Shown: positions 1 to 64,000 of the stretch, piece by piece | How the letters are laid out: each line of letters opens with the position of its first letter | How positions within the stretch are numbered: the stretch's first letter is position 1 | Assembly (NCBI GenBank): GCA_019448385.1 | Contig: JAGTXO010000008.1 | Coordinates: 372,001 to 436,000 of the forward strand | DNA from: Diacronema lutheri | Lineage: Eukaryota; Haptophyta; Pavlovophyceae; Pavlovales; Pavlovaceae | Direction: 5' to 3' | DNA: 64,000 nucleotides | Position numbers and translations under genes: made by a program | Notes under the pieces: model-generated | The model's database searches: none | What the model saw: the letters and a program-made list of their open reading frames with translations, nothing else | What the model was told of the DNA's origin: nothing

Positions 1-62
1 CGCCGCCCCGCGGCCAGGTTGGTCACGCGCCCGCGCGCTCGCGCGCCGCGCGCTGCGCGCAG

Positions 63-1787
63 GTGCCGCGCAACGTGCGCCTCGCCGCGAGCGCCATCTG
101 GGTGACGCTTTCGGATGACGAGCGCAAGGAGCTGCGCGCGCGGCTCAAGGCGCTGGACCTGCGCGACCACGATGGCGAGCCGATCAAGTGGACAGGCACA
201 AACGGCAACACCCCGCCGATGTCGGACGTGCGCGTCAGGTACGCGGTCTTTGCGACGCGCTTCGACATCTCCAACCGCGTCTTCGACTACGCCGGGCGCG
301 AGCGGCCGCCGGCCGATCTGCCGTGGCACGCGCGGCGCTCGTGGGTTGGCCTCGCGCCGCTGCCGCGCGTGCCGCTCCCGGGCCGGCAGCCCGTCAAGTC
401 GGTGGTGACAGATGGCGTCGCCGTGCACGCCGTCGGGACCGTCCTCGTGCCGAAGGCGCAGGCGCCGGCCGGCGGCTCGGGCGTCCTGCACCGCTGGCGC
501 CGGCCGGACGGGCGCATCGCCGTCGCGCTCGGCTCCGAGCTGCGGCGGGCGATCGACGTCGAGGCGGCGGTCGTCGTCGCGGCCGACCCGAACATGGGCA
601 ACATCACCACCTACTCTGCGCACGTCGGGCGGGCGGCCGTCTGGCGGCAGTTCACGCAGCGCGCGCGCGCGCGCGCCGCGGGCTTTGCGCGCGAGACGGC
701 CAAGACCAACGCGGCGCGGCGGCGCGTGCGCAAGGACGGGCGCGGCGAGGAGTTCAGCGTGGAGGCGGACGAGGCGCGGCTTGGCGAGGCGCACAGCGCC
801 AAGGTGCTCGACGCGGGCAAATACATCGCCTTCCACCGCGAGAGCGCGCGGGTGCGCGAGCGCGCCGCCGAGCACGTGTACGACGCGCCGGCGCGCCGGA
901 AGGAGCGCTGGCGGCGCGACAGCGGCGGGCGGTCCAACGCGGCGCGCGTCGCCGAGGCGCTCATCGCGGCGCACTGTGTCGACGGCGTGACGCGCGACCG
1001 GCTGCTCGTGTGCGTGGGCAAGTGGCTGCGCGACCACAAGGGCGCGCAGCCCAAGGGCGCGCCGCCCGCCTTCCAGGTGGGGCTGCTGCGCGAGCTGCGG
1101 CGGCGCGGCGTCGCGGCCGTCTTCGTGCCCGAGCCGTACACGTCGATGCACTGCTCGATGCCGCGGCTCGCCAAGGGCGGCAGGCTGCAGCGCTGCGGCG
1201 CGGAGCTCGCGCAGAACCCGCGCCTGCCCGTGGCAAAGGGCGGCACGCGCACGGTGCACGCGCTCGTCATCTGCCCGGCGTGCAACGGCGGCAAGAAGCC
1301 CGTGCACCGCGACTACAACGCCGCGCGCAACATCTTCTACGACGTGCACGACATGGCGGCGCACGCGGCCGGGCGCGACACCACGTCGACGCCTGAGCGC
1401 TTTGCCCTCGTGCTCGCCTGGTGGGCGCGCGGCGAGGTGTGGGAGCGTGAGGAGCGCATGGTGCACGGCGAGGGCGACGACTGCGACGACGAGTGCGACG
1501 GCGACGACGAGGGCGACGACGAGGGCGACGACGACGACGACGACGATGGCAGCGGCGACGGCGGCGGCGGCGAGGGCGACGGCGACGGCGACGGCGACGG
1601 AGGCGGCGGCGGCGACGACGACGATGACGGCGGGGGAGGCGGCGGCGGCGACGGCGGTGGCGACGACGGCGGCGGGCGCGGCGGCGGTGGCGGCGGCGGC
1701 TCTCGCGCCCGCACCCCCGCCCGCGGAGCTGCCAGCGCCAGTGCCGGCGGCGGCAGCGCGCGCGGGCCGAAGCGCGGCCGGCGTTGA
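63..1787 (+). CDS. Fanzor (TnpB-like RNA-guided nuclease), C-terminal exon, left copy; 5' part outside window
   Basis: Seen: 574 codons open from a CAG splice acceptor at 60-62. Near residue 175 is a RuvC-I aspartate (ADPNMGN). At residue 357 a glutamate lies in VPEPYTSMHC, the position of the relocated RuvC-II glutamate of Fanzors. Zinc-finger ligands are Cys364, Cys378, His near 399, and Cys404/Cys407 (CPAC). The RuvC-III aspartate is residue 417 in HRDYNAARNI. The first residues (VPRNVRLAASAIW) continue the PLRT...VP motif of the Fanzor wedge region, whose upstream part would lie before base 1. The protein ends in a low-complexity Asp/Gly tail (about residues 455-545) and a short basic end. 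Known: Fanzors are RNA-guided DNA endonucleases carried by diverse eukaryotic transposons. Inference: this copy's nuclease exon is intact, unlike the right copy, and may be the active source. The track-like start is a splice junction, not a start codon. Confidence 0.85.
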   Translation: MPRNVRLAASAIWVTLSDDERKELRARLKALDLRDHDGEPIKWTGTNGNTPPMSDVRVRYAVFATRFDISNRVFDYAGRERPPADLPWHARRSWVGLAPLPRVPLPGRQPVKSVVTDGVAVHAVGTVLVPKAQAPAGGSGVLHRWRRPDGRIAVALGSELRRAIDVEAAVVVAADPNMGNITTYSAHVGRAAVWRQFTQRARARAAGFARETAKTNAARRRVRKDGRGEEFSVEADEARLGEAHSAKVLDAGKYIAFHRESARVRERAAEHVYDAPARRKERWRRDSGGRSNAARVAEALIAAHCVDGVTRDRLLVCVGKWLRDHKGAQPKGAPPAFQVGLLRELRRRGVAAVFVPEPYTSMHCSMPRLAKGGRLQRCGAELAQNPRLPVAKGGTRTVHALVICPACNGGKKPVHRDYNAARNIFYDVHDMAAHAAGRDTTSTPERFALVLAWWARGEVWEREERMVHGEGDDCDDECDGDDEGDDEGDDDDDDDGSGDGGGGEGDGDGDGDGGGGGDDDDDGGGGGGGDGGGDDGGGRGGGGGGGSRARTPARGAASASAGGGSARGPKRGRR

Positions 1788-2193
1788 CGCACGGCCGAGC
1801 CGCGCAGCGGTCGACGCTTTGCGGGCTCTGCCCAGGTCGCGCGCGGCTGGCGACGCGTGCCGCGCGCGGCACGACCGTGCACGCCGCCACCCGTGGCCGA
1901 GCGCGCCGCACCAGCCGGCCCGCTCCAACCGCCGTGCGGATCACGGACGCTCGCTACGGCTCGTCGGCGCGCGTCACCTGCGCCGGCGGCCACGGCGCCG
2001 TCTGCTCCGGCCTCGTCGCGAGCAGCCCGACCGCTGCTCGCCGCCCGCACGCCGCCGCAGCAACGCTGCGCGTCGTGCTCCCCCGCTCGCCAAACGCGAA
2101 GAGCTCCCTCACAAGGACGTCCTTCCGAACGGCCCGCGCTGCACTCGGGGCGCGATCGTGCCCCTGATCGGATTTGGCTTGACCATCTATACG
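1788..2193 (+). ncRNA. Candidate guide (omega) RNA region of the left Fanzor element
   Basis: Non-coding stretch between the Fanzor stop and the point where homology to the right copy ends (the shared sequence stops at ...accatctatacg). The two copies remain nearly identical here, with a few substitutions and small indels, so it belongs to the element and not to the flanks. In TnpB and Fanzor systems the guide RNA overlaps or follows the 3' end of the nuclease gene and runs to the element end, with the guide read from the flank. I see no folded structure that I can prove by eye. The assignment rests on position and conservation only. Confidence 0.35.
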
Positions 2194-22603: not shown

Positions 22604-22687
22604 CGCATGGCGCAAAGACGGCAGAGGCTCGGGCAGGTTTCAGGGGACGAGTCCCAAGGCGTGCCAGGCGATGGCCGACGCGGCGCC

Positions 22688-30156: not shown

Positions 30157-30278
30157 CGTGCAGAGCACAGCGCGTCCGATTCACTCGGAGAATCCGCGAC
30201 TGATGATGTCCCAACTGTCAAATTCCCCATACTTACGATTCGCCGAGTTTGGTACACGCCCAGGCCAGCACAACCGAA

Positions 30279-32822
30279 TCACCGCACGGCCGGGCGCACG
30301 GCCTTGGGCACGCCACGCGCCTGGCTGACCGCCCACTGCTCCTGCTTGATGTCGCTGAGCGCGCCGCGCTGCTGCGCCGCCGCGCGCTTTGCGAGCGCGC
30401 GCGTGCCGTCGGTCAGCCGCGCGGCGAGCGCGAGCAGCTCGTCCGACGACTTGACGCCAGCGGAGAGCGGGAACGGCTCGTCGTCCGACGGGAAGGGGAG
30501 GCGCAGCGCGGAGAGGGGCGCGGTGCCAAGCAAGTGCTCGTGCAAATGCGCCTTGTTTGCGCAGTCGTGCCGCATGTCGACAATCGCAACCCCGAGCGCG
30601 TCGAGCTGCACGCCGAGCTGCGCGTCGAAGCCGAGCAGCTCGCCCTCGACGTGCCGCGCGACGCTCGCCTCCTTCTCAAGCGCGAGCTCGAGCGCGCGCG
30701 ATGGCGGCGCATCGCCGCGAGGGCCCTCCGTCGAAAGCGCGCGCAGCCGTTCACTCACGCCGTCCGCAACGTTGCGAGCGGTGCCGGCGGCCGCGAGCAG
30801 CGCGGCGCGCGTGCGCTCGGCGGCGATGCGCGCCGCGTCCGCCGCGACGATGAGCCGGGCGAGGCGCTCGAGGAATGCGGACGTCTCGCGTCGCAACGCC
30901 GTGCGCGACTGGCGCGCGAGCTCTTGTGCCTGCACCATGCCCTTGGGCGACCCTCCCGACGTGAGCTCGTCAAGCAACCGGCGCCGGCGCGGCGGTGAGT
31001 TGCCCGCGTCGCGCGCTACGGCGGCATGCTGCAGCCGCTCGGCTGACGCTGCGCGCGGCTTTTGCGCGGGCGCCGTTTCGGCGCTTCCGCCACCGACGCG
31101 CCGTGCGGGCGTGCGCTCAAAAGACGCGGCACGCCTGAGCATCGGCGCATCGACGGGCGCGCGTAGATCGAGCGGCGTGGAGACGGCCGCGCGAAAAGCT
31201 GCCGTGCTCGCCAGTGCGCCGCTCCCGCCGTTGGTCAAAGCGAGCAGTCGCGCCTCTTCACCTCGCGCCCCGGCGTGGCCACCGGCTACCAGCGCACCCC
31301 GGCGCGCGCGCGCGCCGACCACGCGCGACGGCGACGACCTTAGCCGAGCGCCGCGCGCGCCGGAGCGCGCCGCCGCATGCAGTCCGGCCGCGCAGTCCGG
31401 CGATGGGGCTGTGCAGCGCTGCCCTGCAAAGGCGCGCGCATCGAAGCGCGCGCGCACGTGCGCCGACGCGCCGAGCCGCGGCGCGTCGCGGCGCGTGACG
31501 TGCGCGAGCGCCTCGTGCGCTGGCCGCTGCGCGCTGGCCGCTTGCGCACGGGCACCACACGGCGCCTCGCGCGCGCTGCCCCTGCGAGCGACACCCAATC
31601 GCGTGCGCGGCTCGTCGCGTTCGTGCGCGTGGAGGCGCGGCAGCTCGAAGCGAGCCTCGCGCGGCCGCTGCGCGCTCGCGCCGGTCGGCGACGGTACGCA
31701 CCGCGTTGTGCCGGCGCGCTCTGCCCGCCGCGCGTCGCGCCACGCGCGCTCGAGCTCAGCAGCGCCTCCGCCGTGCGGTACGCCCCCGCCCCCGCCGTCG
31801 CTTTCGCGCACGCCCGTGCCGCGCCCCTGCTCAACTCGCGCTGCGATCGCGCGCGCCTCGGCGTCAAACTCCGCCTCGGCCGCTGCCTCCGCCTCCCACT
31901 CGCGCAGCCGCGCGCGTGCGCTCGCCCTCTCCTCCATGCTCCGTTGCGCGCGCAGCTCGTCGTCGTCATCGTCGAGCGTCGGGCCCGCGCGCGCCGGGTC
32001 GCGCGCGGGAGCGGTGCCAACCGAATCTGAGCCGGCGGAAGCTTCGAAGCGCCGAGGCCTCTCGTACGAGCCGCCCCGCGGGCTCGACTGCACGTCTTGC
32101 CGTTCGGTCTGTTCAGTGACCAAGTGCGGCGAGCGGTGGTCGCTGCCGTGCGAGAGCAAAGGCGAGCCGACGCCGTAACCCGCAGCAGGCCTGCGCGCCT
32201 CCTCCGCGCTCGGGCTCAGCGCGAGCGGGTAATCGGCGCTGCCCGACGCCGCGTCAAGCGTCGCGCGTCGCGCTCCGCCGGCCGCGCTCGCGCTCGCGCC
32301 CAGTCGAGCTGCATCGTCCGGCAATGGGCCCAGGAGCCTCGCGCGCTCGCGGATGTCGACTCGCACCGCGCGTCGCGGATGCTGGGACGCAGTCGAGCAC
32401 GGCGACGCCGCGAGCAAGGCCGAGCGTGGCGTGGACCGAGGCTCGGCCAGTGCGCGCGGCGTGTAGAGCGTCTCGAAAAAGCTCTCCTTGGCCTGCGCGT
32501 TGAGCCGTGTAGTGGCGCGTGCGAGCGGCGTCTGACGGTTAGGTTCAGTGCCCTGCCTCGACGAAAGGCGCGATGCCGCGCGCTCGCGCGCCATGCTCGC
32601 GCCGCGCGTCGTCTCTCCTTGCGGCGCGCCAGCCGAGCCGGCGCGCGCGTCCCGCTCGCGCTTGCGGCGCAGGAAGCCGCGCGCGTAGAGCTGCAGCCGA
32701 CGGGCCATCCGCTCGTGCTTGTACCCGAGGCGCGCAGCCATCTCAATCTGCCCGGAGCGCACGTAGTACGTGACCCATTCCTGACGCGCGAGCTCGTTCG
32801 CGTCCTCACGTCCAGCCTCCAT
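30279..32822 (-). CDS. Unrecognised 847-aa mostly disordered protein
   Basis: One intronless frame from ATG at 32822. The first about 60 residues look folded (MEAGREDANELARQEWVTYY..., HERMARRLQLYARGFLRRKR), with a weak IQ-like basic helix. The middle 500 residues are Ala/Arg/Ser-rich and disordered. The last about 200 residues form predicted helices (SRTALRRETSAFLERLARLI, LELALEKEASVARHVEGELL, MRHDCANKAHLHEHLLGT), perhaps a coiled-coil or cytoskeletal module. It starts only 54 bp after the stop of the large upstream gene on the same strand. No family is recognised. Confidence 0.5.
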   Translation of the reverse strand: MEAGREDANELARQEWVTYYVRSGQIEMAARLGYKHERMARRLQLYARGFLRRKRERDARAGSAGAPQGETTRGASMARERAASRLSSRQGTEPNRQTPLARATTRLNAQAKESFFETLYTPRALAEPRSTPRSALLAASPCSTASQHPRRAVRVDIRERARLLGPLPDDAARLGASASAAGGARRATLDAASGSADYPLALSPSAEEARRPAAGYGVGSPLLSHGSDHRSPHLVTEQTERQDVQSSPRGGSYERPRRFEASAGSDSVGTAPARDPARAGPTLDDDDDELRAQRSMEERASARARLREWEAEAAAEAEFDAEARAIAARVEQGRGTGVRESDGGGGGVPHGGGAAELERAWRDARRAERAGTTRCVPSPTGASAQRPREARFELPRLHAHERDEPRTRLGVARRGSAREAPCGARAQAASAQRPAHEALAHVTRRDAPRLGASAHVRARFDARAFAGQRCTAPSPDCAAGLHAAARSGARGARLRSSPSRVVGARARRGALVAGGHAGARGEEARLLALTNGGSGALASTAAFRAAVSTPLDLRAPVDAPMLRRAASFERTPARRVGGGSAETAPAQKPRAASAERLQHAAVARDAGNSPPRRRRLLDELTSGGSPKGMVQAQELARQSRTALRRETSAFLERLARLIVAADAARIAAERTRAALLAAAGTARNVADGVSERLRALSTEGPRGDAPPSRALELALEKEASVARHVEGELLGFDAQLGVQLDALGVAIVDMRHDCANKAHLHEHLLGTAPLSALRLPFPSDDEPFPLSAGVKSSDELLALAARLTDGTRALAKRAAAQQRGALSDIKQEQWAVSQARGVPKAVRPAVR

Positions 32823-45404: not shown

Positions 45405-45919
45405 ATGGGCGGCGACTCGATCGGTGACGGTCGCTACGTCTTGGCAGCGGCACTGGGCGAGGGCACGTTTGGTGCGCGCCGACGCACGCCGCGTCAATTT
45501 GCATGCCCGGTTGACGGCGCGCGCGGCGCCTCCATCTGAGCGCCGCGCACGCGCCGCCGCGCGCATGCACTCCTCCGAATCGCCGCGCACGGCTGCGCGC
45601 AGGGCAGGTGCGGCTCGGGCACGAGGTGCGCACGGGCGAGGCGGTGGCGGTCAAGGTGCTCGAGCGCGCGCGCATTGCCGACGCAGACTCGCGCGCGCGG
45701 CTGCACAACGAGATCGAGATCCTGCGCAAGATCGAGCACGCGTCGTTGCTGCGGCTCCTCGAGGTGATCGACGAGCCTGACGCGACCTACCTCGTGACTG
45801 AGCACGTGAGCGGCGGCGAGCTCTTCGCGTACATCGACAAGGTTGGCCATTTGCCAGAGACTGAAGCCGCCGAACTCTTCGCGCAGATGCTCTCCGCCGT
45901 CGACTCGCTGCACGCGCTT

Positions 45920-45952
<33 letters not shown>

Positions 45953-47575
45953 ATGCTCCTCGAGCTGCGGCAGCATGGCGACAGCAGCGGCGGCGGCGGT
46001 GGTGGGCCAACGCGCGAGATCAAGATCATCGACTTTGGCCTCGGCGCGTTGCTGCCCTCAGCCGACGAGGTGCTGACGAGCGCATGCGGATCGCCGCACT
46101 ACGCCGCGCCGGAAATGTTGATTGGCGACGGTTACACGGGCAGGCGGGCCGACCTGTGGAGCCTGGGCGTGTGTCTGTACGCCACGCTGTGCGGATGCCT
46201 GCCCTTCGACGAGGACGACATGGAGGTGCTCTACGACAAGATCATCGACGGCGACTTCTCGTTCGACGGCTGCCCGGTGCTCTCCGCAGCGGCCATCGCT
46301 CTCATCAAGGGTGCGCGCGGCCGTGCGTGCGCGCGCCGCGGCGACGCCGCGCCCCGGCTTGGCGGCGCGCGGCTGGCCATCGCGCGCGCCGGCGCGGCGC
46401 ACGTGCGCGCGCCGTGCCGACGAACGCTGCGCCCGCCGCCGCGCCCGGCCCGCCACCCGCGCTCGCGCGCACGCTGTGTCCGGGCGCCGCGCCGCGCGCC
46501 GCGCGTCCCCGCCGGCGCCGTCGGGGCATGCGCAGGTCTGCTCACGACGGACCCCGAGAAGCGGCTGACCGCCTCGCAGGCGCTGCAGCACGAATGGCTC
46601 ATCGAGTCGCGGCGCGGCGCGGCCGCGCGCGTGCCTGCCGTGCTCGCTGGGTCGATGACGGACCTTGCGCGCGCGCGCGTACTGCGCGCGCTGGCGGACG
46701 AGTTCTCGCTCTCAAAGGACGCTGTGGTGGGCGCGCTCGCGCGGCGCGACCGCACGTACGAGACAGCGCTCTACTTCCTCGTCCGGCAGCGCGAGATCAA
46801 CACGGGACGCGTGCTTGACCAGCCGCGATTCCTGCCGACGCCGCCACCACCGCGCCCGGGTGCAAACGGACGGCGGCCGGTGCCGCGCCGCCTGCGCGAG
46901 GCGCGCACAGCCTTCGCCGCGCGCGCGGGCGCGCCGCGCCCGCCGCCGCTCCGTTCCGAGCTCCCTGCGCGCGTCAAGGCGGGCGGCGGGGAGCCGGACG
47001 GCGCAATCCGCGCACACGGCGGCGTGGACGACGTCGTCGAGCGCGGCTGCGCGCAGAGCGGCGCGCACGCAGCCGCGCCGCTCGAGATGCCTGCGGCCGG
47101 CGCATGTGCGCGGTGCGCGCCGGAGGGCCCGACCGCTCGCGCGGCGGGCGGATCCTCGAGCGGCGGCGCCATGGAAAGCCGACCCGGCGTGCTGAGCGAC
47201 ACGTGCGCGGGTGGTAACGAGGGCGCAGAGGCCATGGGCAGCGGCGATGCTTTGGAGGCGAGTCGCACTGCACACGATCGCGCGCGACACGCAGCCGCCG
47301 CCGTCGACGCCCTTACCGTTCACGCCGCGCCCGTCGCAGACGCGCCGGTCGTGAGCGGCGGGCGCCCGCGCGGCGATGCCGACGTGCGAGCCGCGGAGCC
47401 GCGCCCGCGCGCCGGCGGCAGGCGGCCGAGCTGGGGCTCGGCTGCGGCGGCTGCGCTCGACCGAGGGGCCAAGGCGAAGGGCGGGAGCCCGTCATCCAAA
47501 GCGACTGGCGGCAACTCGGGCAAGCCGTCCGCGTCTCTCGCGAGCAACGTCATCCGGAGACTATGGCAGAGATGA
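45405..47575 (+). CDS. SNF1/AMPK-like (CAMK group) serine/threonine kinase
   Basis: Three exons: 45405-45471, 45603-46310, 46536-47575 (604 aa). Splicing restores ALGEGTFGQVRLGHEVRTGE and KGLLTTDPEKRLTASQALQH. Kinase motifs: VAVKVLERARI, IEHASLLRLLEVIDEPDATY, HVSGGELFAYI, IVHRDLKPENMLLE, IIDFGLGALL, CGSPHYAAPEMLIGDGYTGR, DLWSLGVCLYATLCGCLPFD. These place it in the SNF1/MARK/BRSK branch. A helical segment after the kinase (ARVLRALADEFSLSKDAVVG) resembles the UBA-type autoinhibitory domain of that branch. The C-terminal 250 residues are disordered and end in a basic NVIRRLWQR. The reading frame stays open through the second intron, which is recognised because it would interrupt the kinase fold. 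Confidence 0.8.
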
Positions 47576-47729
47576 CACGAAAGGAGATGGGAAGGGGAAG
47601 AGGGCGGGGGGCGATGGCCGAGAACGGCCGCGTGCGCCGGTACGGCTCGGCCGCGCGCGTCGGCCCGATCGGATCCAGGCCACGGTCGAGCCGACCGTTG
47701 ACGGTTGACCGCTCGAGTCGCTTCGCGCG

Positions 47730-49640
47730 ATGGCGGTCGGCGGACCCATCCGACGAGCGCTCGTCGGCGTGGTGCTCTTTTCCGGCGTGGGCTGCGCGCC
47801 GCCGACGCCGCCGACGCGCACCACGCGCGGCGCGGCGCGCTACGGGGCTCCTGCGCCGACGGCAGCCCCTGCGCACCGCGCGCTCGCCGAAGCGACGCAT
47901 GCCACGCGGCGGCGGCTCGGCGGCCGCCAGCACGTGCGGCCCAAGAACAAGGTAACGTGGCCGCTGCCGAGCGCGGAGAGGCCGCGCTTCGTCCCGCGGG
48001 GCCTTGGATTTGATTCGCGCGAGTGCCCCGAGCCGCCGTCTCGGCAAGCGGCCCTCAACTGGCACGCGCCGCTCACGGGTGCGACGGCGAGCGCGCACGC
48101 GACGCGCGCGCCGCCGTCGGAGGCCGGCTCGTGCGAGGTGCGCGACGGAGTGCTGGCGATGCGGCATGCATGCCTGCACGACGGTACATTCTACGTGCGC
48201 ACGGCCGTTGGCGGTGAGCGCCTCGCCGTGCGCACGCCGCGCTGGGGCCCATGGGGCCGTGGCGGCCGCGCGGAGCCGCCCGTCCACGTTCAGCCTTGGC
48301 GCGACCCGGCGCACGGCCCGCCTGGCGCGCGGATGTGGCTGCGCGGCACGTGGCTCTTTGCGCAGCCGCGCCTCGCATTCTCGCCCAAGAACGTCTACCA
48401 CGCCCTCGACGAGCTCGAGCTTCTCGACGGTCTCGCGCGCCGGGCGGACATGCGCCTGCGCACACTGACCGCATTCGTCTCACTGAACCACCGGCCGCCG
48501 CTGCTCAATGGAACACTTCTTGGCGCGCTGCTCGCGCTCGCGACGGAAGCACCCATGGCATACCACCTGCCGCCTGAGCCCATGCCCGCCGCGCTGTGCT
48601 TCGATGCTGCGCTGCTCGAGGTTGATCAGAACGTCAGTGCGCTCGCCGCCGCGTGCGGCGCCGCCGGCGCCGCCGTGGCCGGCGCCGCCGCACCGCCGCC
48701 GCGCGCGCCGCACGGCACGCACGATGGCTTCGTCGATATTGCGCGCTCGTCGTACGCGCGATTGCGCATGCACGGCACACCGCCGCGCTCGGCGAGCGCC
48801 TTCGAGCGCACGCGTGTGCTGATCGTCAATCGTCTGAGCTCGCGCACCCTCGTCAATCTGCCATACCTTGCGCACGCGCTCGTGCGCGCGGGCGCGCACG
48901 TGACGGTGGCCGCGTTCGAGTGCCTCGAGCTTGTTGCGCAGATTGCGCTCGTGAGCCGCGCGTCGACGCTGATCGGCGCGCACGGCGCCGCGCTCTCGCT
49001 CGGCCGCTTCTTGCCGGACGACGGCGCGATCGTCGAGTTGCGCTCGGCGCCGTGCATCGAGGACGACCTGTCGTGGATGGGATTTCGCAGCCGGTTCGCC
49101 GTGCTCGGCGCGCCGGCGCGCGCGACCGTGTCCGACTTGCCCTGCCCGCTCTGGCGCGCCAAGACGGGCATGCCGTTCGTCGTCGACATCATCGCCGTGC
49201 TCGGCGCGGTCCGCGCGCTCGATCGCGTCGCGTGCCGCCACGCGCGGTGCGCGCGCGCGCCGCCGGCGTGCTCGGCGGCGCAGCTCGGCGGCGAGGCGGC
49301 CGACGGCCATCTTGCCACCCACGGCACGCTGCCGGGCGAGCTACGCCCGGGCGTGCCGCTCGTGTCCGTGCGCGCCGCGCGGTACGAGCGCGAGGTGCGC
49401 GGCCGGGCGGAAGTTGCGCGCGCCGACGCGGCTCGCGGCGGCGCGCGCGAGCGCGACTCGGCGGCGGCGACGCAGCTGGCCGGGAACCGCGCACCGCGCG
49501 CGGGAGAGAGTGACAATGCCACGCAGTCCGGCTGGGTGCAGCCCTGGCGCGCGTGGGACGCTTGCCGCCGGGCGCACGCCGCACTGGCACCGCCGCACGT
49601 GCGCCACGCCAGCGCGGACACAGCAATGGCGAACGGCTAG
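47730..49640 (+). CDS. GT61-family glycosyltransferase, type II membrane protein
   Basis: 636 aa, no intron. A short N-terminus with a hydrophobic anchor (ALVGVVLFSGVGCAPP) is followed by a Golgi-lumenal stem. The GT61 (DUF563) pattern lies at residues about 360-460: TRVLIVNRLSSRTLVNLPYL, VTVAAFECLELVAQIALVSR, STLIGAHGAALSLGRFLPDD, GAIVELRSAPC. Family members add xylose, arabinose or O-GlcNAc to glycans in the secretory pathway. The donor cannot be read here. The C-terminal 130 residues are low in complexity. The gene sits 154 bp after the kinase and 15 bp before the next gene. Confidence 0.75.
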   Translation: MAVGGPIRRALVGVVLFSGVGCAPPTPPTRTTRGAARYGAPAPTAAPAHRALAEATHATRRRLGGRQHVRPKNKVTWPLPSAERPRFVPRGLGFDSRECPEPPSRQAALNWHAPLTGATASAHATRAPPSEAGSCEVRDGVLAMRHACLHDGTFYVRTAVGGERLAVRTPRWGPWGRGGRAEPPVHVQPWRDPAHGPPGARMWLRGTWLFAQPRLAFSPKNVYHALDELELLDGLARRADMRLRTLTAFVSLNHRPPLLNGTLLGALLALATEAPMAYHLPPEPMPAALCFDAALLEVDQNVSALAAACGAAGAAVAGAAAPPPRAPHGTHDGFVDIARSSYARLRMHGTPPRSASAFERTRVLIVNRLSSRTLVNLPYLAHALVRAGAHVTVAAFECLELVAQIALVSRASTLIGAHGAALSLGRFLPDDGAIVELRSAPCIEDDLSWMGFRSRFAVLGAPARATVSDLPCPLWRAKTGMPFVVDIIAVLGAVRALDRVACRHARCARAPPACSAAQLGGEAADGHLATHGTLPGELRPGVPLVSVRAARYEREVRGRAEVARADAARGGARERDSAAATQLAGNRAPRAGESDNATQSGWVQPWRAWDACRRAHAALAPPHVRHASADTAMANG

Positions 49641-53093: not shown

Positions 53094-53193
53094 ATACTAA
53101 CGACGCTTACAGGCGGGTCAGCAGGAGGGGCGCACACGGGGCCGAGGCTGGACAAACGGAGCGAGCGAAAGGGCGCACGCAACATCAGGCCGT
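53094..53193 (-). mobile_element. Severely 5'-truncated retroelement insertion (100 bp) with 12-bp duplications
   Basis: About 99 bp nearly identical to 2236-2335 (the 3' end of the left retroelement; one substitution, g/a, in gggcgcacac), flanked by exact atacgtatagat repeats at 53082-53093 and 53194-53205. It lies within the 3' boundary of the right Fanzor element, so it was inserted after that element. It shows the element can integrate with almost all of its 5' part lost. Confidence 0.8.
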
Positions 53194-53197
53194 ATAC

Positions 53198-53604
53198 GTA
53201 TAGATGGTCAAGCCAAATCCGATCAGGGGCACGGTAAAGCGCCCCGAGTGCAGCGCGGGCCATTCGGAAGGACGTCCTTGTGAGGGAGCTCTTCGCGTTT
53301 GGCGAGCGGGGGAGCACGACGCGCAGCGTTGCTGCGGCGGCGTGCGGGCGGCGAGCAGCGGTCGGGCTGCTCGCGACGAGGCCGGAGCAGACGGCGCCGT
53401 GGCCGCCGGCGCAGGTGACGCGCGCCGACGAGCCGTAGCAAGCGTCCGTGGTCCGCACGGCGGTTGGAGCGGGCCGGCTGGTGCGGCGCGCTCGGCCACG
53501 GGTGGCGGCGTGCACGGGCGTGCCGAATGCGGTACGCGTCGCCAGCCGCGCGCGACCTGGGCAGAGCCCGCAAAGCGTCGACCGCTGTGCGGCTCGGCCG
53601 TGCG
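53198..53604 (-). ncRNA. Candidate guide (omega) RNA region of the right Fanzor element
   Basis: Homologous to 1788-2193 on the opposite strand, directly after the Fanzor stop. Conservation ends at accatctatacg, the same base as in the left copy. The 12-bp duplication of the small retroelement overlaps this end. Evidence is positional, as for the left copy. Confidence 0.33.
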
Positions 53605-55334
53605 TCAACGCCGGCCGCGCTTCGGCCCGCGCGCGCTGCCGCCGCCGGCACTGGCGCTGGCAGCTCCGCGGGCGGGGGTGCGGGCGCGAGAGCCGCCGCC
53701 GCCACCGCCGCCGCGCCCGCCGCCGTCGTCGCCACCGCCGTCGCCGCCGCCGCCTCCCCCGCCGTCATCGTCGTCGTCGTCGTCGTCGCCGCCGCCTCCG
53801 TCGCCGTCGCCGTCGCCGTCGCCCTCGCCGCCGCCGCCGTCGCCGCTGCCGTCGTCGTCGTCGTCGTCGTCGCCCTCGTCGTCGCCCTCGTCGTCGCCGT
53901 CGCACTCGTCGTCGCAGTCGTCGCCCTCGCCGTGCACCATGCGCTCCTCACGCTCCCACACCTCGCCGCGCACCCACCAGGCGAGCACGAGGGCAAAGCG
54001 CTCAGGCGTCGACGTGGTGTCGCGCCCGGCCGCGTGCGCCGCCATGTCGTGCACGTCGTAGAAGATGTTGCGCGCGGCGTTGTAGTCGCGGTGCACGGGC
54101 TTCTTGCCGCCGTTGCACGCCGGGCAGATGACGAGCGCGTGCACCGTGCGCGTGCCGCCCTTTGCCACGGGCAGGCGCGGGTTCTGCGCGAGCTCCGCGC
54201 CGCAGCGCTGCAGCCTGCCGCCCTTGGCGAGCCGCGGCATCGAGCAGTGCATCGACGTGTACGGCTCGGGCACGAAGACGGCCGCGACGCCGCGCCGCCG
54301 CAGCTCGCGCAGCAGCCCCACCTGGAAGGCGGGCGGCGCGCCCTTGGGCTGCGCGCCCTTGTGGTCGCGCAGCCACTTGCCCACGCACACGAGCAGCCGG
54401 TCGCGCGTCACGCCGTCGACACAGTGCGCCGCGATGAGCGCCTCGGCGACGCGCGCCGCGTTGGACCGCCCGCCGCTGTCGCGCCGCCAGCGCTCCTTGC
54501 GGCGCGCCGGCGCGTCGTACACGTGCTCGGCGGCGCGCTCGCGCACCCGCGCGCTCTCGCGGTGGAAGGCGATGTATTTGCCCGCGTCGAGCACCTTGGC
54601 GCTGTGCGCCTCGCCAAGCCGCGCCTCGTCCGCCTCCACGCTGAACTCCTCGCCGCGCCCGTCGGTGCGCACGCGCCGCCGCGCCGCGTTGGTCTTGGCC
54701 GTCTCGCGCGCAAAGCCCGCGGCGCGCGCGCGCGCGCGCTGCGTGAACTGCCGCCAGACGGCCGCCCGCCCGACGTGCGCAGAGTAGGTGGTGATGTTGC
54801 CCATGTTCGGGTCGGCCGCGACGACGACCGCCGCCTCGACGTCGATCGCCCGCCGCAGCTCGGAGCCGAGCGCGACGGCGATGCGCCCGTCCGGCCGGCG
54901 CCAGCGGTGCAGGACGCCCGAGCCGCCGGCCGGCGCCTGCGCCTTCGGCACGAGGACGGTCCCGACGGGTGCACGGCGACGCCATCCGTCACCACCGACT
55001 TGACGGGCTGCCGGCCCGGGAGCGGCACGCGCGGCAGCGGCGCGAGGCCAACCCACGAGCGCCGCGCGTGCCACGGCAGATCGGCTGGCGGCCGCTCGCG
55101 CCCGGCGTAGTCGAAGACGCGGTTGGAGATGTCGAAGCGCGTCGCAAAGACCGTGTACCTGACGCGCACGTCCGACATCGGCGGGATGTTGCCGCTTGTG
55201 CCTGTCCACTTGATCGGCTCGCCATCGTGGTCGCGCAGGTCCAGCGCCTTGAGCCGCGCGCGCAGCTCCTTGCGCTCGTCATCCGAAAGCGTCACCCAGA
55301 TGGCGCTCGCGGCGAGGCGCACGTTGCGCGGCAC
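53605..55334 (-). pseudogene. Fanzor C-terminal exon, right copy, with 1-bp deletion
   Basis: The same RuvC/zinc-finger exon as 63-1787, in inverted orientation. RuvC-I ADPNMGN, the VPEPYTSMHC glutamate, CPAC and HRDYNAARNI are all present. Near 54969 one base is missing relative to the left copy (gtgcacccgtc for gtgcacgccgtc), so the frame coming from the acceptor at 55335 ends in the wrong register (VAVHPSGPSS instead of VAVHAVGTVL). A few substitutions (N/S, T/I, A/T, K/T, A/V) and a different number of Asp codons in the acidic tail distinguish the copies. Either this copy is inactivated or the base is a sequencing error. The exon joins in phase to the giant upstream frame. Confidence 0.8.
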
Positions 55335-55464
55335 CTGCGCGCAGCGCGCGGCGCGCGAGCGCGCGGGCGCGTGACCAACCTGGCCGCGAGGCGGCGCGCA
55401 CGGCGGCGGCGCGCGCGCGCTTGGGCCCTCGGCGGCGGCAGCGGCAGCCGCGCCTCGCGCGCAC
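55335..55464 (-). other. 130-bp intron joining the giant frame to the Fanzor exon
   Basis: Donor gtgcgcgcg after THN (55465) and acceptor gcgcag before VPRN (55334). Removing it gives YNVAPLRTHNVPRNVRLAAS, which rebuilds the conserved Fanzor PLRxxxVP motif with both sides in phase 0. The left copy shows the same acceptor at 60-62. Confidence 0.75.
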
Positions 55465-58400
55465 ATTGTGCGTGCGCAGCGGCGCCACATTGTACCGCGG
55501 CGGCCGTCCGGTCAGCTGCGTGTGGATGTGCGCGAGCCGGCAGAGCAGCGCCTGCCCCTCGGCCACGTGCTGCAGGGTGCGGATCTGCACGAGGAAGTAG
55601 CGCGTCGTGTGCCGGTCGTAGTTCCACCTTTTCGTGGGCGTGCACTTGTAGTCGATCTTGTGGAGGACCATGTCGGGCAGGTGGCGGTCGAGCGCGGCGG
55701 GGCAGCCGACGCGCGCGCCCTCCACGTCGCCGCGCAGCAGCCGCTCGCACAGCTCGCGCACGCGCGCGTTTCGCTGCATCTCGGGCAGCGCGACGAGCGC
55801 CTCGTCGCGCTCGACTGCCGCGCGGACGACGTCGCGGAGCAGCCCGTTCACGACGCGCGATGGGTGCATCAGGCACGCGGTGGACACCTGCGTCGCCTCC
55901 GCCTCGAGGATCTCCGTGAGGCCCACCGCGCAGACGGGCTGGACGCCCTCGGCCATCTCGCCGACGGCGCGCGCCGTCGCCGCCTTGGTCTGCGCGGCGG
56001 CTTGCTCGGCGGGCTTGCCTCGCGGCGCTGCACCGTACGTGCTCTCGTCCTTGTGCCAGCCGATGGCCGAGAAGATCGCACGGACGGATCCCTTGTCCAT
56101 CGTGGTCGACGTGTGCACGCTGGTCGACGGGCCGCCCGACGCCGCGCCGACGGCCTGCGCGCTCGCCACCGCAGCCTCGTCGCGCACCACCTTGTTGATG
56201 ACGCGGTACGCCTGTGTCGTGAGCCTGTGCACGGCCGCCGCGATGCGCCGCAGCTCCTTCCGCGCACCGGGCTGCGCCGTCACCGCCTGCGGCCCCGCGT
56301 TGAGCGTCGAGCGCTTGACCACGAAGCCCGGGAGCACGCTGCCGCGCGTGCGCGCCGTCGCGCCGCCGGCGGCGCGCGCGCTCGGCGCAGCGGGCTCGTC
56401 CACGCGCGCGCGCTCGACGCCGCGCGCGCGGGGAACGCTCGGCGCGCGCGCGCCCGCGGCGTCGCGCGCGCTCGCGGCGGCACCCGCCGCGGCGCGCTTG
56501 CCCGCGGCGCCCGACTCGCCGTGCGCGCGAAGCGGCGCCGACGCCAATGCCGACGCCGCGCCCGCGCCGCCGCTGCCGCTGCCCGATCCGCCCGCGCGCC
56601 GCTTCTGCTCGTCGCGCGTCTTGCGGAACTGGGCGACGAGGTCGCTGCTCACGTTGGCCTCAGGCTCCCACGTGTCGGCGCTCTCGTCGTAGCCCCGCCA
56701 CCTGATCCGGAACTGGAACGTCACCTTCTTGCCCGCCTTGCGGCGCTCGTCGACGACCGCCTCGACCTCGTACGTGCGCGCCTCCTCGTCGACGCTCGCG
56801 CCCGCCGCGCTCGCGCCCGTGTCCGGCCACCCAGCGACCGTGCCGCCCAGCCTCTCGGCGGCCGCGCGCAGCTGCCGCTCGCGCTGGGCGGCCGCGGCGC
56901 CTCGCGCGACCAGCGCGGGCAGCATGCCCGCGCCGCCCGCGAGGCCGTGCGCGCCGACGCTGGCGGTCATCAGCGCGTCGAGGCACGCGAACGTTGCGAG
57001 CGCACACGCGCCATCGTCGCCGCCGCGCGGCTGCGAGCGCACGACGGGCGATGGCCGCGGCTCCCCCTCGGCCGCGAGCAGCGGCCAGATCGCACTGGCC
57101 AGCGCGACGGCATGCGCGCCGACCGCGACGGCCACGTCCGCGTCGAGCGGCGCAAAGTCGTAGCGCACGAGCGCGGCCGGGCGCGAGTCGTCCGTCGGCC
57201 GGTCGGCGACGAGCAGCCCGACCGGGCGCGGCGGCTCGCCGGACGGCGCGGCGACGGGCACGCAGAGGAGCACGACGAGCAGGCGCGGCGTGCCGCCGAG
57301 CAGCGCGCGCGCGGCATCCGCCCCGTCGGCTCCGCCGCGCGCGGCCGCGGCGAGCAGCTCGGCCGCGCGCGTCGGGCCCAGCGCCGTGCGCGCGTCCTTG
57401 CGCGCGCGTGCGCGCGCCGTGTACGCGGCGCAGGCGTCGTCGAGCACCGCCGCGCTGGGCGCGGTGCCAGTCGTCGCCCACGCGCGCAGCGCGTCGCGCA
57501 CCCGCGTGACGATCGCCTGGTCGACCGCCGCCTCGCCGGCAGCGTGCGCCGGCGCGCACGCCGGCGGTGCGGCGGCAGGCGCGAGCGCGGGCGCGCCGTC
57601 GGCGCCGTCAACGCCGACGGCGCCGTCGGCGCGCCGCCACGCGAGCTTCGCCTCGATCTGCTGCCGGACGGCGTGGCAGTGCCGGTCGATGCCGCGCGCG
57701 TCGTCGAGCGCGGCCAGCGCGTCCTCAGCGGCGGGACGGCCGCTCGCGTCCGCGACGGCCTGCAGGCAGAGCAGCGCGGCCGCACGCGCGTTGCACGCGC
57801 TCTGCGGCTCGGGCGCGAGCGCGTGTTCGAGCTCGAGCGGCGACGCGCCTCGCGCCGCGGCGATCGCGTCCATCAGCACGTCCAACCGCTGCACCAGCGC
57901 CCTGTGCGCGTCGCGCGGCGCGCCCGTCGACGGCGCGCGCGAGCGCGTCGCCACGAGCCCGAGCGCGCGCGCCGGCGCGCCCGCCGGCGTGTGCAGCACG
58001 AGCAGCGCCGCGCCCGCCAAGCTCGCGTTGCGCGTGACGAGCGCGAAGATGCGCGTCGCCTCGTGCGCGCCCACCGACGCCCAGATCGCAGCGCGATCGG
58101 CGTCCGTCTGCGCGTCGCACAGGTCGCGCACGTCGTCCGGCGCGAGCAGCGCGCCGCCGCCGGCGGAGCGCGCGACGATCGCCCGCGCCTCCGCCACGAA
58201 GACGGCCTGCGGCAGGTCGGCGTGGCGCGCGTCGACGATGGCGCGCGTCGCGTGCACGCCGAGCTCCACGCCGCGGTAGAAGGCGCGCGCGTTGGCCGCG
58301 CGCGCGTGCGCCGGCCGTCCGTCCGCGTTGCGCCTCGCGCGCGCCTGCTTGCTCGTGCGCGCGAGGCCGTCGCGTGGCGGTGGCGGCAGCGTGGCGAGGA

Positions 58401-61400
58401 AGCGCGCGGTGGGCGGCGGCGCGCGCACGCCGCGCTGCCGCCGTGCGATGGCCGCGAGCCGCCGGCCCGCCGCGCTGCCGCCCGCGCCGACGTGCTGCCA
58501 GCGGTTGAGCGCCGCCGGTGGCGGCGGCGGCGGCGGCGCGGCGGCGGGCGGCGGCGCGACGGCGGGCGGCGGCGCGGCGGCGGGCGGCGGCGCGGCGGTG
58601 GGCGGCGGCGCGGCGGCGGGCGGCAGCGGCGGCGGCGCGGCGGCGACGGCAGCACCAGTCGGCTTGTCCGCCCACGCACCCGAGACGCTGTCCCAGGCCT
58701 TGCCCGGTGGCGCGCGCCCACGCGGCCGCGGGTGGCGGGCTCGAGCGGCGGGGGGCGGGCGGCCGGCGCGCCAGTCGAAGACAGGTGCAACCGTGGCGGC
58801 AGGCGCCGAGTGCAGCGCGTCGGTCACAGAGCGCGTGGTGCGCGCGGCGACCGTGGCGCGCATGGCAGGCGGGCGGTGAGCAGCGCCCGCCGGCGCGCCG
58901 GCGGGCGCGGCAGCCGGCGCGCCGGCGGGCGCGGCCGCCTCGAGCCCGGCGGAGGCGCCGCGCTTGCGCTTGCGCGTGCCGCCGCGCGTGCGCCTGCGCG
59001 CGCGCCCGCCGCGCGCCCGTGCGGCCTGCGCGTCGCCAGCCGCGTCGCCGGCCGCGTCGCCGCGCCGCACGTAGACGATCGCGAACGCCTCCTCGCCGGT
59101 CCCGTCGACGCCGCCGCGCGCGCGGCGTAGGACCGACCGCCACTGCAGCCGCCGCGCGCGGCCGGGCTCGCACGCAAACCAGCGCCCACCGCGCCTGACG
59201 ACGGCCACAAAGTCGTCGTCGCGCCGCCCGCGCCGGCGCGTGCGCAGCAGCACGCACTGCACGTCGAGCCAGCCCTCGTGCCAGTCGGCCGTGCTGGGGG
59301 CGACGCGAATCGACTGCGGGAGCTCGACGCCAAAGCCGGCGAGGCGCACGATGTGCGCGACGATGACGCTCGAAATGGCGGGGGCGCTCGACGGGTCGTC
59401 CGCTGCAGCGAGCACCGCCTCGCCCCAGTGCTCACGCGTGACGCAATCCGCGTCCTCGACGTGCACGTGCGCCACGCTCGCGCCGAGCTGGTGCAGCAAC
59501 GCGCAGATGTCGGCGTCGACCGTCCTCTCCTCCTCGGCCGCCTCGGCCGTGCCGCGGGCGGCGGCGTCGCCCGCCGGCTGCCCGAGGTACGCGATCGCCC
59601 GCTCGACGGCCGCGCCCTCCGCACGCGCTGCGCTGGCGATCGCCGCATTGCCGACGGGCGCGCGCAGCGCCGCGATCGCGTCTTGCAACGCCGTCGCGTC
59701 GCCCGTCGCCGCCGCCGCCGTCACCGCCGCCGCGCTCGCGGTGCCGTGCGCGACGGCGTGCAGCGCGGCGGCGCGCGCGGCGGGGATGCGCCCGTCCAGC
59801 GCGAGCACGAGCGGCGGCCCGGCCGGCGTCTGCTGCCGCCGGTGCCGCCGGCTCGCAGCCGGGTGGTCGGCGCGAGCGCGCTCGAGCCGCGCGCGCCGCT
59901 CGACGACGCGCGCCCAGAAGGCCTGCACCCTCGGCTGCGCGAATGCAAGCCAGCCGGCGCCGCGCGTCACGACGTGCACGACGATCCGGTCCTCGTGCCT
60001 GAGGTACTGCACGTAGAGCGCTTTGCTCACGCCGAGGACGTGCATGCCGAGCTGCAGCTGATCGCGGTGCGGCTGCGGCGGCCCGTCCTCGTGCGCCTTG
60101 GCGTCCGCCTTGGTGAGCGTCTTCACCTCGACGAGGACCTGCTCGTTGTTTTCGGGGAGGATGGCGAGCCCGTCCGGCGAGAAGGCGAACGGCGCGCTCT
60201 TGTCGTGCGGGTCCGCACGCACCATCGGCAGGTTGCACACGACGGTGATGCCGTACGCGGCCGCCAGCTTGCGCAGCGCGACGGCCTCGCCGAGGATGCC
60301 CGCGGTCGTCGCCTTGGTCCGCACCTCGCGCCGCCGCCGGTGCACGTACTCGTCGGTGAGCGTCTCGTGCGCGACGCCGGCGTTGTCGTTCACGACGTCG
60401 CCAACCTTGCTGCCCGTGACCTCCTCCCATCGCTCGTCGTGCCAGCGCGGGCTGCGCTGCGCGGGCGCGCCCGCGCCGACGGCGTCGAGCACGCGGCGCA
60501 GCGCTGTGCCGTCGGGCGCAGCAGGCACGCGCGCGCGGTCCTGGGCCTCGCGAGCGTCGAGGACGCGGCCCGTAGTGGAATCTTGGGGTAGGTCGAGCTT
60601 GCTCGCCTCGCCGTAGCGGCTCTCCAGCTGGCGCGGTGCGTCGGCAGGGCCGCCGTCCGTGCGCGCACCCGACGCGCCCGCCAGTGCACGGGGCGCAGCG
60701 TCCGAGGCGCCCGCCGCGCCCGCGCCGCCGCCAATCGCGCCGGCGCACGCGCGCGCCGCGACCTGCGGACGGCCAGCCGCAGGGGCCTCGTCCGCTCGGC
60801 CGGCCGCTGCGTCGGCCGTCCGCTTGGCCGCCTCGCGCACGTCTCCGAGCGCGAGCGTTGCTGGCGCCGTCCAGCTCCCGTTGCGTTTGTCCCAAAATTT
60901 GAGCAGCCCGCCAAGGAAGGGCGTGCCCGTCGGGCGGTCCTCGGGCACCTCCGCCAGGATCGCGTCGACGCGCAGCGCGGCCGCCACATCGCAAAACGCG
61001 CGCGCGGCGCGCGCCATCCGCTCGGCGCGCGCGCCGCCGTCGTCCGCCGCGCGGCGGATGGCGTGGCTCACGTGCGCGACGCGGAGCGAGACGACGGCGT
61101 GCGCCGGCGCGCCGGCGCCCGTGCCGAGCGTGTGCCGCCGGATGGCCAGCTGCCCATCGCCCATGCGCGGCGGCAGCGACGCGCACGCCGCGACGGTCGT
61201 CGTGCCGGCCGCGCTGTCGCACAGCCAGCTCGCCTCGCCGCCGCCCGCAAACTCAAAGGTCGCGAAGCCCTCGCGGCCGAAAAGCGCGACGAAGTGGTCG
61301 AGCACCGCCTTGTTGATCGCGCGCGCCGCCGGCCGCGTCGATGCGCCGCGGGCAGCGCCACCCGCCGCGCCGCGCGCATCGCTGCACGTCGCAGGGCAGG

Positions 61401-64000
61401 TGCAGCCGGACGCGCGCACGCCGTCCGACCGCGTCCGCGGCAGCTCGAGCTCGCGCACCTTGGGGCAGAACCAGAGCGGGTTGGACGCCTCGAGGCACAG
61501 CACGACGAGCCGCCCGTCCGTGCCGGCCAGCGCGCGCGCGTCGCGCAGCAGCTCGACGGCGAGCTCGGACGTCGCCGCGTGCACCGCCGGCTCGCCCGTC
61601 GCGCGGTCGGGCGGGAAGAGGCCGCCGCCGACGAGCGGGCTGGGGCAGCGGCCGAGCATCACGAGCAGCGGCGGCGGCGGCGTCTGCGGCGCCTGCTGCC
61701 CGACCGCAGCCGCCGTCAGCCCGGCCAGGTCGGAGCTCGTGCGGAGGGCCTTGAGCGCGACGCGCGAGCCGGTGCCCGCCTGCTCGGAAAACGTGGCGCG
61801 CATGGCGCACGTGCTCGCCCTCGCGCCGCACTGCCAGCTGACGCGCGCGAGGAGGCCTTCCAGCGTGTCGTTTTCGCGCGGCCGCGTGACCGCGTCGAGC
61901 GCCGCCGGGCCGAGCTGGAGGCTGCCGGGCGTGACGCACAGCACCGCCTCGTGGTAGGCGCGCAGCAGCTCCCTCGGCAGCTGCTCGGCGGGCGTCGCCG
62001 CCTGCCCGCCCACCCACCGTGCACCGTGGCCGCCGTCGCCCGCGCCCGCGAGCCGCACCGCCGGCCCGCCCGTGATCGCCGAGGTCGGCGGCGTGCCGAG
62101 CGCGTCGACGAGCGCGCGCACGGGCGCGACACGCCTGCGCGCAGCGTCCGCGCCGACGGCGAGCGCGGCGATCTGAGCGCCCTCCCATGCGCGCCCCCTC
62201 GCGTCGTCCCGCGCGGCCGCCGGCGCGGCGCCCGGCCGCGCGCCGTGCGGCACCGCGCACGCCGCCGCGACGACCTCCGCGCGCGCGCCGGCGGCGTCGG
62301 GCGCGTGCAGCTGCGCGAGCGCGCCAAAGAGCGCGGCGGCCGAGCGGTAGCGGCCGTGCGCCGCGACGAGCGCGTAGAGCACGCGCAGCGCGGCCACGCC
62401 CGCCTGGTCGGGCGCGTCGCCAGCGATTTGCTCGACCTCCCACGTGCGCGTGGGCGGCGGGCTGCCGTCGGCCGGGTCCGGACGCAGCGCCCACGCGCGC
62501 TCGACGATCGCGTTGAACACGTCGCGCGCGGCGCCCTCGTCAAACTCGGCGGCGCCCGCCGCGTGCGCGCACCACCCGTGCACGCGCGACGTGGGCGCAT
62601 CCACGGCGCGCTGCACGACGAGCACCGCCGGCCGGTCGACGCAGCCGAGGCTCACCGCCGCGTGCTTGCCCTCGAGCAGCGCCGCCGCCGCAGCCTCGAC
62701 CAAGGCGTCATCAGGCGCGTCGCCGACGACGACGGCACAGCCGTCGCCGTACTCGGCCTGCATCGCGGCGACGCACGACGCGACAAAGTCGCCGCCCGCG
62801 GCCGCCGCGTGTCGCGCCGCCAGCATCCGGCGCGCGATGGCAAGCCAGACGTACTCGGCCGGCGCGCGCGCGGCGCGCGCGCGAGGCGCGCCGGCCGCGC
62901 CGCGTGCGCCAGCGCGTGCGCCTCCAGCGGCCGCAACGGCCGAGGCGGCTGGAGCGGCGGTGAGCGTGCGCCGCGCGCGCTTCGCCGGCCGCGCGATGGG
63001 CGATGCACCCGCCGTCGCACCGCCCGCAGCAGCCGGTGCGGCCGCCACAGCGCCCGCCGCAACGCCACTCGTCACGACGCCCGTGGCGGGCGGCGCGGCG
63101 TCGGACGCGGCCGCCTCGACGGGCGTCGCGCAACTACCGCCAGCGGTCGCGGACGCGCCCGGCGACGCGTCGGCGAGGAGGTGGCGCAGCACGCCGCGCG
63201 CGAGCGCGACTCGCACGGCGAGCGTCAGCGCGCGCAGGCGGTCGGAAGGCGAGGCGTCGCGCTCGGCGTCGGCGGACGTGGCGGCAGCAGGCGGGGCGGC
63301 GGGCGGCACGGCGGCGGACTGGGCGGCCGCCGGCGCAACCTCGTCGGCCTTGGCCAGCCAGACGAGCCCGGCGACTGCGAGCACGACGCTGTACGCGCCG
63401 ACATCGTCACCCGCAACGCGCGCCAGCCGGGCGTGGGCGTCGGCCTCGGACACGGCGACGCGGAAGAGCACGTCGTCGCGGGCAGCTTGCTCGGCAAACT
63501 GACGCAGCTGCTTGGCCATCGTCACGCCGGCGACGCACGCCTCGCCCGCCTCTGCCTCGACCTGCTCGTCCTGGCCGATGGCGGACGCGCCGGCCTCGGC
63601 GCCAGCGTCGAGTGTCCGGCGGCGCTCGAGGGCAAAGCCACGCACACAGACGCTCTGGAGGCCGCCGATCGCGTTCGCCTTCTCGTGCAGCGCGCACGAC
63701 AGCTCGACCACCGAGTCCACGCGCCTCGCGGCGGCGCCCCCCCGCTCGCCGCGCGTGGCCGCGCGCACGACGAACACCGTGAATTGCGCGCGCTTCGCCG
63801 CGCGCGCCGACGCGCACGCGTGCTTCAGGAGCCGGCAAAGCGCGGGCCTTTGCGCCGCTGCGCCCCGCGTGCACAGCAGCAGTTGGCCGCGCTCGTCGCC
63901 CAGCTCCTGCTCGACGGCGGCCTCGAGCGCGTCGTCCGTCAAATCGCCGTGCTCCGTCGAGGCGAGCGCGCGCGCAGCCGCGAGCGCCAGCTCGCCTGCG
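55465..64000 (-). CDS. Giant mobile-element protein: FEN1-like, YqaJ exonuclease, chromodomain, Fanzor N-terminal half (5' end outside window)
   Basis: One minus-strand frame without a stop from the window edge to the donor at 55464 (over 2840 codons). Counting from the first start-like codon at 63942: residues about 60-195 resemble the XPG-I/FEN1 fold (VAVSEADAHARLARVAGDDV), but the FDG and DSD-type aspartates are lost. Residues about 1165-1330 form a YqaJ-type exonuclease (SPRWHDERWEEVTGSKVGDV, GEAVALRKLA, FSPDGLAIL, VLVEVKTLTKADAK, QLQLGMHVLGVSKALYV), with the PDG...ExK catalytic pattern. Several intervening stretches recall degenerate Ulp1-type peptidases (for example DAPDQAGVAALRVLYALVA); this is weak. 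Residues about 1767-1815 are (P3A3)n. About 2384-2437 is a chromodomain (RTYEVEAVVDERRKAGKKVT, IRWRGYDESADTWEPEANV). From about 2535 the Fanzor N-terminal helical region begins (KELRRIAAAVHRLTTQAYRV, MDKGSVRAIFSAIGWHKDES). No transposase is recognised. Confidence 0.7.

Follow-up and report, generated by a model that had tools for sequence, protein, structure and literature searches.

A Fanzor-like nuclease part in one reading frame with a RecE-type exonuclease and a chromodomain within a high-copy element of Diacronema lutheri

A stretch of 64,000 nucleotides from the haptophyte alga Diacronema lutheri (the window, C71:372001-436000) carries at its far end, on the minus strand, a single very long reading frame in which a YqaJ/RecE-type exonuclease domain is followed by a chromodomain and then, across a small intron, by an exon for the C-terminal half of a Fanzor-like nuclease. 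This giant frame forms the 3' portion of a mobile element that has precise ends and a high copy number; the element is 31,016 bp long in a sister copy (copy B, C71:151838-182853) and truncated in the window copy that bears the frame (copy A). The most likely reading is a Fanzor-carrying element whose guided nuclease is coupled to an exonuclease that resects DNA ends and to a reader of chromatin.

The giant frame and the element that carries it

Open reading frame analysis of copy A found the minus-strand frame 55279-63999 open for 2,906 codons and running off the window edge, as expected from an earlier note on this DNA, which had described an uninterrupted frame of more than 8.4 kb. Beyond the edge the contig keeps the frame open for 1,027 further codons, up to the break of copy A, giving 3,933 open codons in total. 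Length alone is weak proof of coding here, since the stretch has a GC content of about 75-81% and long antisense frames are open as well (1,251 and 1,136 codons in the same stretch, and 2,902 codons in copy B). Judged from its sequence, the giant frame is coding because domains match along it, because the codon-position GC pattern stays in one frame for most of its length, the signal being weak in Ala/Pro-rich and tandem-repeat windows, and because the indels between copies A and B are net multiples of three. The long antisense frames, and the truncation and frameshift of the window copy, would also suit a chance open frame in GC-rich DNA amid transposon debris, with no functional gene, but the domains recognised by profile, the codon signal, indels that keep the frame and the large number of intact copies make this explanation highly improbable.

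A search of the genome (43,492,796 bases in 103 contigs) places the element at 125 or more merged places on 68 of the 103 contigs, at least 125 being a count that includes partial copies and to which copies B and D were added; copy B is the sole copy read whole. The element begins CTATATACGG..., also given as CTATATAC..., and ends ...GACCATCTATAC, with a terminal CTATAC, and 24 of 25 3' loci end at the same base ahead of differing flanks, the remaining one (L051) being without the end motif. Copy E (C9:2136663 to about 2167720), the middle of which was read in part, is 99.4-99.6% identical over the first ~18 kb and 99.6% identical across 3.2 kb near its own end. Such near-identity suggests recent activity of the element, and gene conversion may be an alternative source of it. 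Copy A starts at about element position 18,342, without the first ~18.3 kb, and its frame holds an expanded array of ~57-bp units; 5'-truncated copies are likewise reported for Chlamydomonas Helitron and Helitron2 elements in the accessible part of one study (PMC3627910).

The domains of the giant frame

The exonuclease assignment comes from a match to phrog_434, 'RecE-like recombination exonuclease' (E=1.7e-16), and from PF09588 YqaJ (cut-off 22), which scores 15.9 bits in the whole copy A open reading frame, below the cut-off, 22.0 bits on the piece cut out of copy A, and 28.2 bits in near-identical copy B; TIGR03033 also matches, below its own cut-off. These profile matches are what likens the domain to the YqaJ, RecE and lambda-type exonucleases of phages, from which it differs in its eukaryotic setting, a frame of great length that it shares with a chromodomain and a Fanzor part. 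The chromodomain matches PF00385 with E=3.1e-12 (46.7 bits, cut-off 25.1). Both domains had been proposed in the earlier note and are borne out, and the FEN1-like region that it placed in the same frame has been dropped, no XPG match having appeared in Pfam profile or PDB sequence searches. Ulp1-type protease-like modules, suspected in the linkers from sequence motifs, likewise drew no support from Pfam.

The intron is 130 bp long in copies A and B and 128 bp in copy E, in which the 351 codons read ahead of it and the 574 codons behind it are all open. A 128-bp insert would shift the phase between the two open halves unless removed, and this is good evidence, at the level of the sequence, that the small intron proposed earlier is spliced out. 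The earlier note had the intron joining the giant frame in phase to the RuvC/zinc-finger exon; that exon is intact in copies B, C and E at 574 codons and is broken in the window copy, where a 1-bp deletion relative to copy B, at about window position 54968, brings a stop after 308 codons and leaves the RuvC/zinc-finger segment out of frame. As read, copy A is a relic that would be incapable of making the full nuclease. Across the sample, exon 2, covered from element position 29,216 or so onward, shows no frameshift in 23 of the 25 3'-end loci, the two frameshifts being those of the window copy (-1) and L039 (+2), and the exonuclease region is free of them in 9 of 10 loci, window copy included, with L011 (+1) as the exception.

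A search that scored 8,000 candidate proteins for the Fanzor part returned three, P0002 (100% identity), P0003 (47%) and P0004 (45%), and residues D171, E353 and D413 are invariant in all of them. PF07282, the TNB domain (cut-off 26.3 bits), is matched at 28.5 bits in copy A, 28.4 in copy C and 28.0 in P0002, and falls below the cut-off in P0004 (23.7) and P0003 (11.4). A Fanzor/TnpB-type C-terminus, as the earlier note had it, is supported by PF07282, and the N-terminal half of the Fanzor has no profile match; the stretch before the intron is one that we take to be the Fanzor N-half from its place and from sequence motifs. The prokaryotic TnpB subfamily profile NF040570 of NCBIfam (guided_TnpB, cut-off 100 bits) gives 14 bits for P0002, 11 for P0004 and no match for P0003, and we therefore name this part Fanzor-like and not TnpB. 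The motif given for Fanzor and TnpB proteins is D-X(125,275)-[TS][TS]-XX-[C4 zinc finger]-X(5,50)-RD (PMC3627910, accessible part), and the spacing of D, X184, TS and RD in the element's nuclease fits the D-X(125,275)-[TS][TS]-...-RD pattern. The zinc finger is spaced C-x13-C-x25-C-x2-C in P0002, with the last Cys lost in P0004, and DPN replaces DPG at RuvC-I.

The metagenomic proteins P0003 and P0004 begin with MPR at the site of the first exon-2 residues; this fits a conserved splice acceptor but could be a true start. Both span the C-terminal half only and are silent on conservation of the fusion. A protein search with the long frame returned no relative, and scans of viral contigs and prokaryotic genome contigs confirmed none.

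Table 1. Features of the window and of the element in copy B. Window positions are given unless the element of copy B is named.
Feature	Positions	Strand	Remarks
Copy A, window part	53198..64000	-	extends outside the window to about C71:439,073-439,083
Giant frame, exon-1 part	55465..63999	-	open at window edge
YqaJ / RecE-type exonuclease domain	60037..60444	-	frame residues 1186-1321; PHROG match 1178-1369
Chromodomain	56620..56772	-	residues 2410-2460, PF00385
Presumed Fanzor N-half	55465..56328	-	from place and sequence motifs; no profile match
Intron	55335..55464	-	130 bp, GT-AG, phase 0
Fanzor exon 2, RuvC / zinc-finger half	53605..55334	-	broken by 1-bp deletion near 54968
TNB (zinc-finger / RuvC-III) domain	54064..54303	-	PF07282 1.7e-6, 28.5 bits
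3' noncoding element end	53198..53604	-	ends ...GACCATCTATAC; candidate guide-RNA scaffold
Flank past 3' end	53178..53197	-	predicted guide segment, by analogy with known families; length arbitrary
Copy C, element 3' end	1..2192	+	cut by window start; 98.6% identical to copy A; ends CTATAC
Copy C exon 2	63..1784	+	intact, 574 codons; stop 1785-1787; PF07282 28.4 bits
DegT aminotransferase	11818-13272		Pfam
Ion channels	19606-21354, 28193-29338		Pfam
MCM8-like helicase	22691-25747		Pfam
Protein kinases	25761-28082, 45515-47572		Pfam
Glycosyltransferase 61	47709-49637		Pfam
Pif1 helicase (copy B element)	3367-5771		pieces in different frames
UCH-like peptidase piece (copy B element)	6879-8372		below cut-off
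Frame of 1,345 codons (copy B element)	11,689-15,723		without profile match
Giant frame (copy B element)	15,386-28,756		
Intron (copy B element)	28,757-28,886		
Exon 2 (copy B element)	28,887-30,608		

Among the other genes of the element, the Pif1 pieces match PIF1 (3.7e-14 and 1.8e-24) and Pif1_2B (6.2e-13). The first of these pieces opens, in the same frame, with a further domain (L067:1204-2589), whose relatives P0006 (53%) and P0007 (52%) are stand-alone metagenomic proteins of 255 and 264 residues; this domain ahead of Pif1 may be a single-strand-binding protein. Near the element 5' end there is an ~870-bp near-palindrome with nested repeats (C71:153837-154707, L068/L067, element about 2000-2870). 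Copy C, at the other end of the window, lies on the plus strand with its tail towards copy A, and the 3' end of copy D (L003, C71:452451, minus strand) is found ~13 kb past the broken 5' end of copy A. Host-type genes recognised by Pfam fill window 11818-49637, and self-comparison of the window shows a tandem array at 15547-16060 whose units recur roughly every 27 bp.

Weighing the joined nuclease and the mode of spread

Several results weigh against a working guided nuclease joined to the exonuclease in a self-spreading element. The presumed Fanzor N-half has neither profile support nor a significant PDB sequence match, and none of the solved Fanzor structures was matched significantly in the PDB sequence search, the best relevant matches being to Cas12f1 (E=0.35 and 0.17). 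AlphaFold2 models of the C-half, built with three sequences, were unusable, with a predicted local distance difference test score of 41. Among exon 2 variants common to at least two loci, 22 are nonsynonymous (~799 sites) and 8 synonymous (~284 sites), and in the exonuclease region the counts are 21 (~2,247 sites) and 12 (~852 sites), so that shared variants give little sign of selection, with no clear recent purifying selection on amino acids. In copy B there are in-frame ATGs between the exonuclease (~residue 2789) and the chromodomain (~4017). The last 263 bases of the element (53198-53460), within the candidate guide-RNA scaffold, fold as RNA somewhat better than shuffled sequence (z=-2.13, with 6 of 200 shuffles as good), which is weak evidence for a guide RNA. 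Finally, no transposase was recognised, there being no HUH, tyrosine-recombinase or DDE profile in the element open reading frames scanned. The support for function is to be found in the unbroken frames and in the residues kept at 45-47% identity.

One explanation for this pattern is that the Fanzor-like part no longer cuts DNA and serves the giant protein as an RNA- or DNA-binding module. The divergent zinc finger with its last Cys lost in P0004, DPN in place of DPG, and a per-site ratio of nonsynonymous to synonymous shared variants near 1 would all suit such a loss, which we nevertheless regard as unlikely given that D, E and D are kept in three of three relatives, that TNB stands over its cut-off in copies A and C, and that 23 of the 25 loci are frameshift-free.

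Whether the parts belong to one molecule is a separate matter. In copies A and B the frame runs without a stop from the exonuclease through the chromodomain into the presumed Fanzor N-half, and copy E has none in its 351 codons before the intron, so that the stops between separate genes to which the earlier note had pointed are not seen. Its central proposal, that a Fanzor-like nuclease shares its frame with a chromodomain and a YqaJ/RecE-type exonuclease, is supported, in what is now a delimited, multi-copy mobile element. Copy B has no in-frame ATG between residue 3971, before the chromodomain, and residue 4246, which already belongs to the presumed Fanzor N-domain (its start is put near 4170); any product initiated at an exon-1 ATG would therefore either hold the chromodomain or lose the first part of the presumed N-domain. 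The union of exonuclease and chromodomain, with ATGs between them, rests on the shared frame and the codon signal. We infer from this a single translation product holding all the parts, which may be a polyprotein that is later cut. The other possibility is separate products, made from an internal promoter, from another 5' exon or by protease cleavage of a polyprotein, such that the exonuclease is not in the same molecule as Fanzor. For it speak the ATGs just described, the UCH-like peptidase piece in the element, below cut-off as it is, and the calling of P0003 and P0004 as proteins that start at the exon-2 position; the single continuous frame with its codon signal, the lack of an in-frame ATG from the chromodomain to the presumed Fanzor start, and the fact that exon 2 by itself would miss the N-half leave it somewhat unlikely.

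The element was compared with two classes of transposon. An ordinary Helitron with a Fanzor1 passenger would account for the Pif1 helicase with its 2B domain and for the lack of target duplications, none being seen by eye in the five of nine copies with both flanks readable, and Fanzor1 in Helitrons has been published (PMC3627910, accessible part). Against it, the element ends are not 5'-TC...CTRR-3', the longest terminal inverted match is 7 bases and was equalled in 253 of 500 shuffles, the open reading frames scanned hold no HUH domain, and the sole Helitron_like_N (PF14214) place in the genome is on C63, outside the element and outside copies B and E. We consider this origin quite improbable, and membership in Helitron or Helitron2 was rejected for want of a HUH Rep and of a terminal inverted match beyond chance, the Pif1-type helicase being the one group feature that is present. 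A Crypton or other tyrosine-recombinase element was likewise rejected, the phage-integrase profile PF00589 occurring at 16 places genome-wide and at none in copies B or E. Six of these 16 places (on C17, C50, C4, C35, C34 and C92) have an element end no more than about 10 kb away, the position of some of these ends being set from length, and one, C69:95472, is within 31 kb of the element 3' end at C69:118981. An integrase helper acting in trans is possible.

A flank search for an empty site found only filled ones, on C45 and C39, where copies L071/L072 (C45) and L073/L074 (C39) have a common 5' flank and different 3' flanks, a mismatch that may be due to recombination between copies or to an assembly mis-join. 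Since flanks of 31-kb repeats may be mis-joined in assembly, the missing target duplications are not firm. Contigs start at the element 3' end in C1, C5 and C6, and by position also in C10, C12, C26 and C29, and C14 and C33 end at it, one base beyond, with no contig edge at the element 5' end among the matches listed. These edges are probably assembly breaks at the repeat. A telomeric element was rejected because, among the places listed, CCCTAA runs occur on C29 and where C15 and C30 begin.

Proposed action and place among known systems

Known TnpB and Fanzor nucleases use a guide RNA that takes its scaffold from the 3' end of the element and its guide from the flank next to it. The Fanzor exon of the window copy stops 407 bases short of the element 3' end. 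On the reading that we favour, with guided nuclease, exonuclease and chromatin reader joined, the nuclease would carry an RNA with the element 3' end as scaffold and the 3' flank as guide, and it would cut the empty allele or sister site; the linked RecE/YqaJ-type exonuclease would resect the cut ends, repair would copy the element into the gap, and the result would be homing-like retention or spread, with the chromodomain holding the complex on marked chromatin. A broader proposal follows the same lines, namely that this is a new class of giant eukaryotic element without a known transposase, which would spread by RNA-guided homing through a polypeptide of chromatin-tethered Fanzor and RecE-like exonuclease, aided by the element helicase. 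We put it forward tentatively and think it rather unlikely as it stands.

As far as the accessible parts of the sources go, the Fanzor1 proteins of eukaryotic transposons (PMC3627910, PMC10432273, PMC10711439) share with the present case the RuvC/TNB C-half, carriage by a mobile element and a gene near the element 3' end, whereas here the Fanzor part follows a chromodomain and a RecE-type exonuclease in a common frame, has an unusual zinc-finger spacing and belongs to an element without a recognised transposase. PpFz1, as described in the part of PMC11423790 available, is a Fanzor1 that also carries an extra domain, an inserted FRI domain that binds host cyclophilin, but it is a small insertion inside Fanzor and not an exonuclease/chromodomain chain. 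The Chlamydomonas Helitron and Helitron2 elements with Fanzor1 (PMC3627910, likewise in part) are also algal, with a Pif1-type helicase in the group and Fanzor1 as cargo, whereas the present element shows no HUH Rep or Helitron ends, is 31 kb long and holds its Fanzor in a multi-domain frame. PMC3627910 mentions neither a chromodomain nor YqaJ, and in the accessible literature, outside which most subscription papers lie, no paper pairs YqaJ with a chromodomain or with Fanzor and none joins YqaJ, transposon, Pif1 and eukaryotes. One review there mentions Fanzor together with haptophytes, and two papers mention TnpB along with chromodomain, transposon and eukaryotes.

The D. lutheri genome is reported, in the accessible part of its description, to be 22.9% repetitive, with long terminal repeat elements making up 32.7% and long interspersed nuclear elements 3.8% of the masked bases (PMC8379373), and some of the repeats that belong to neither group may derive from the element. 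It would offer, in an alga whose genome is published, a high-copy system in which the copies are nearly identical and mostly unbroken. The role of Fanzor in eukaryotic transposons is unsettled, according to the part of PMC10432273 available, and a natural protein that unites guided cutting, end resection and chromatin reading would, if true, point directly to guided cuts as the starting point of copying by recombination.

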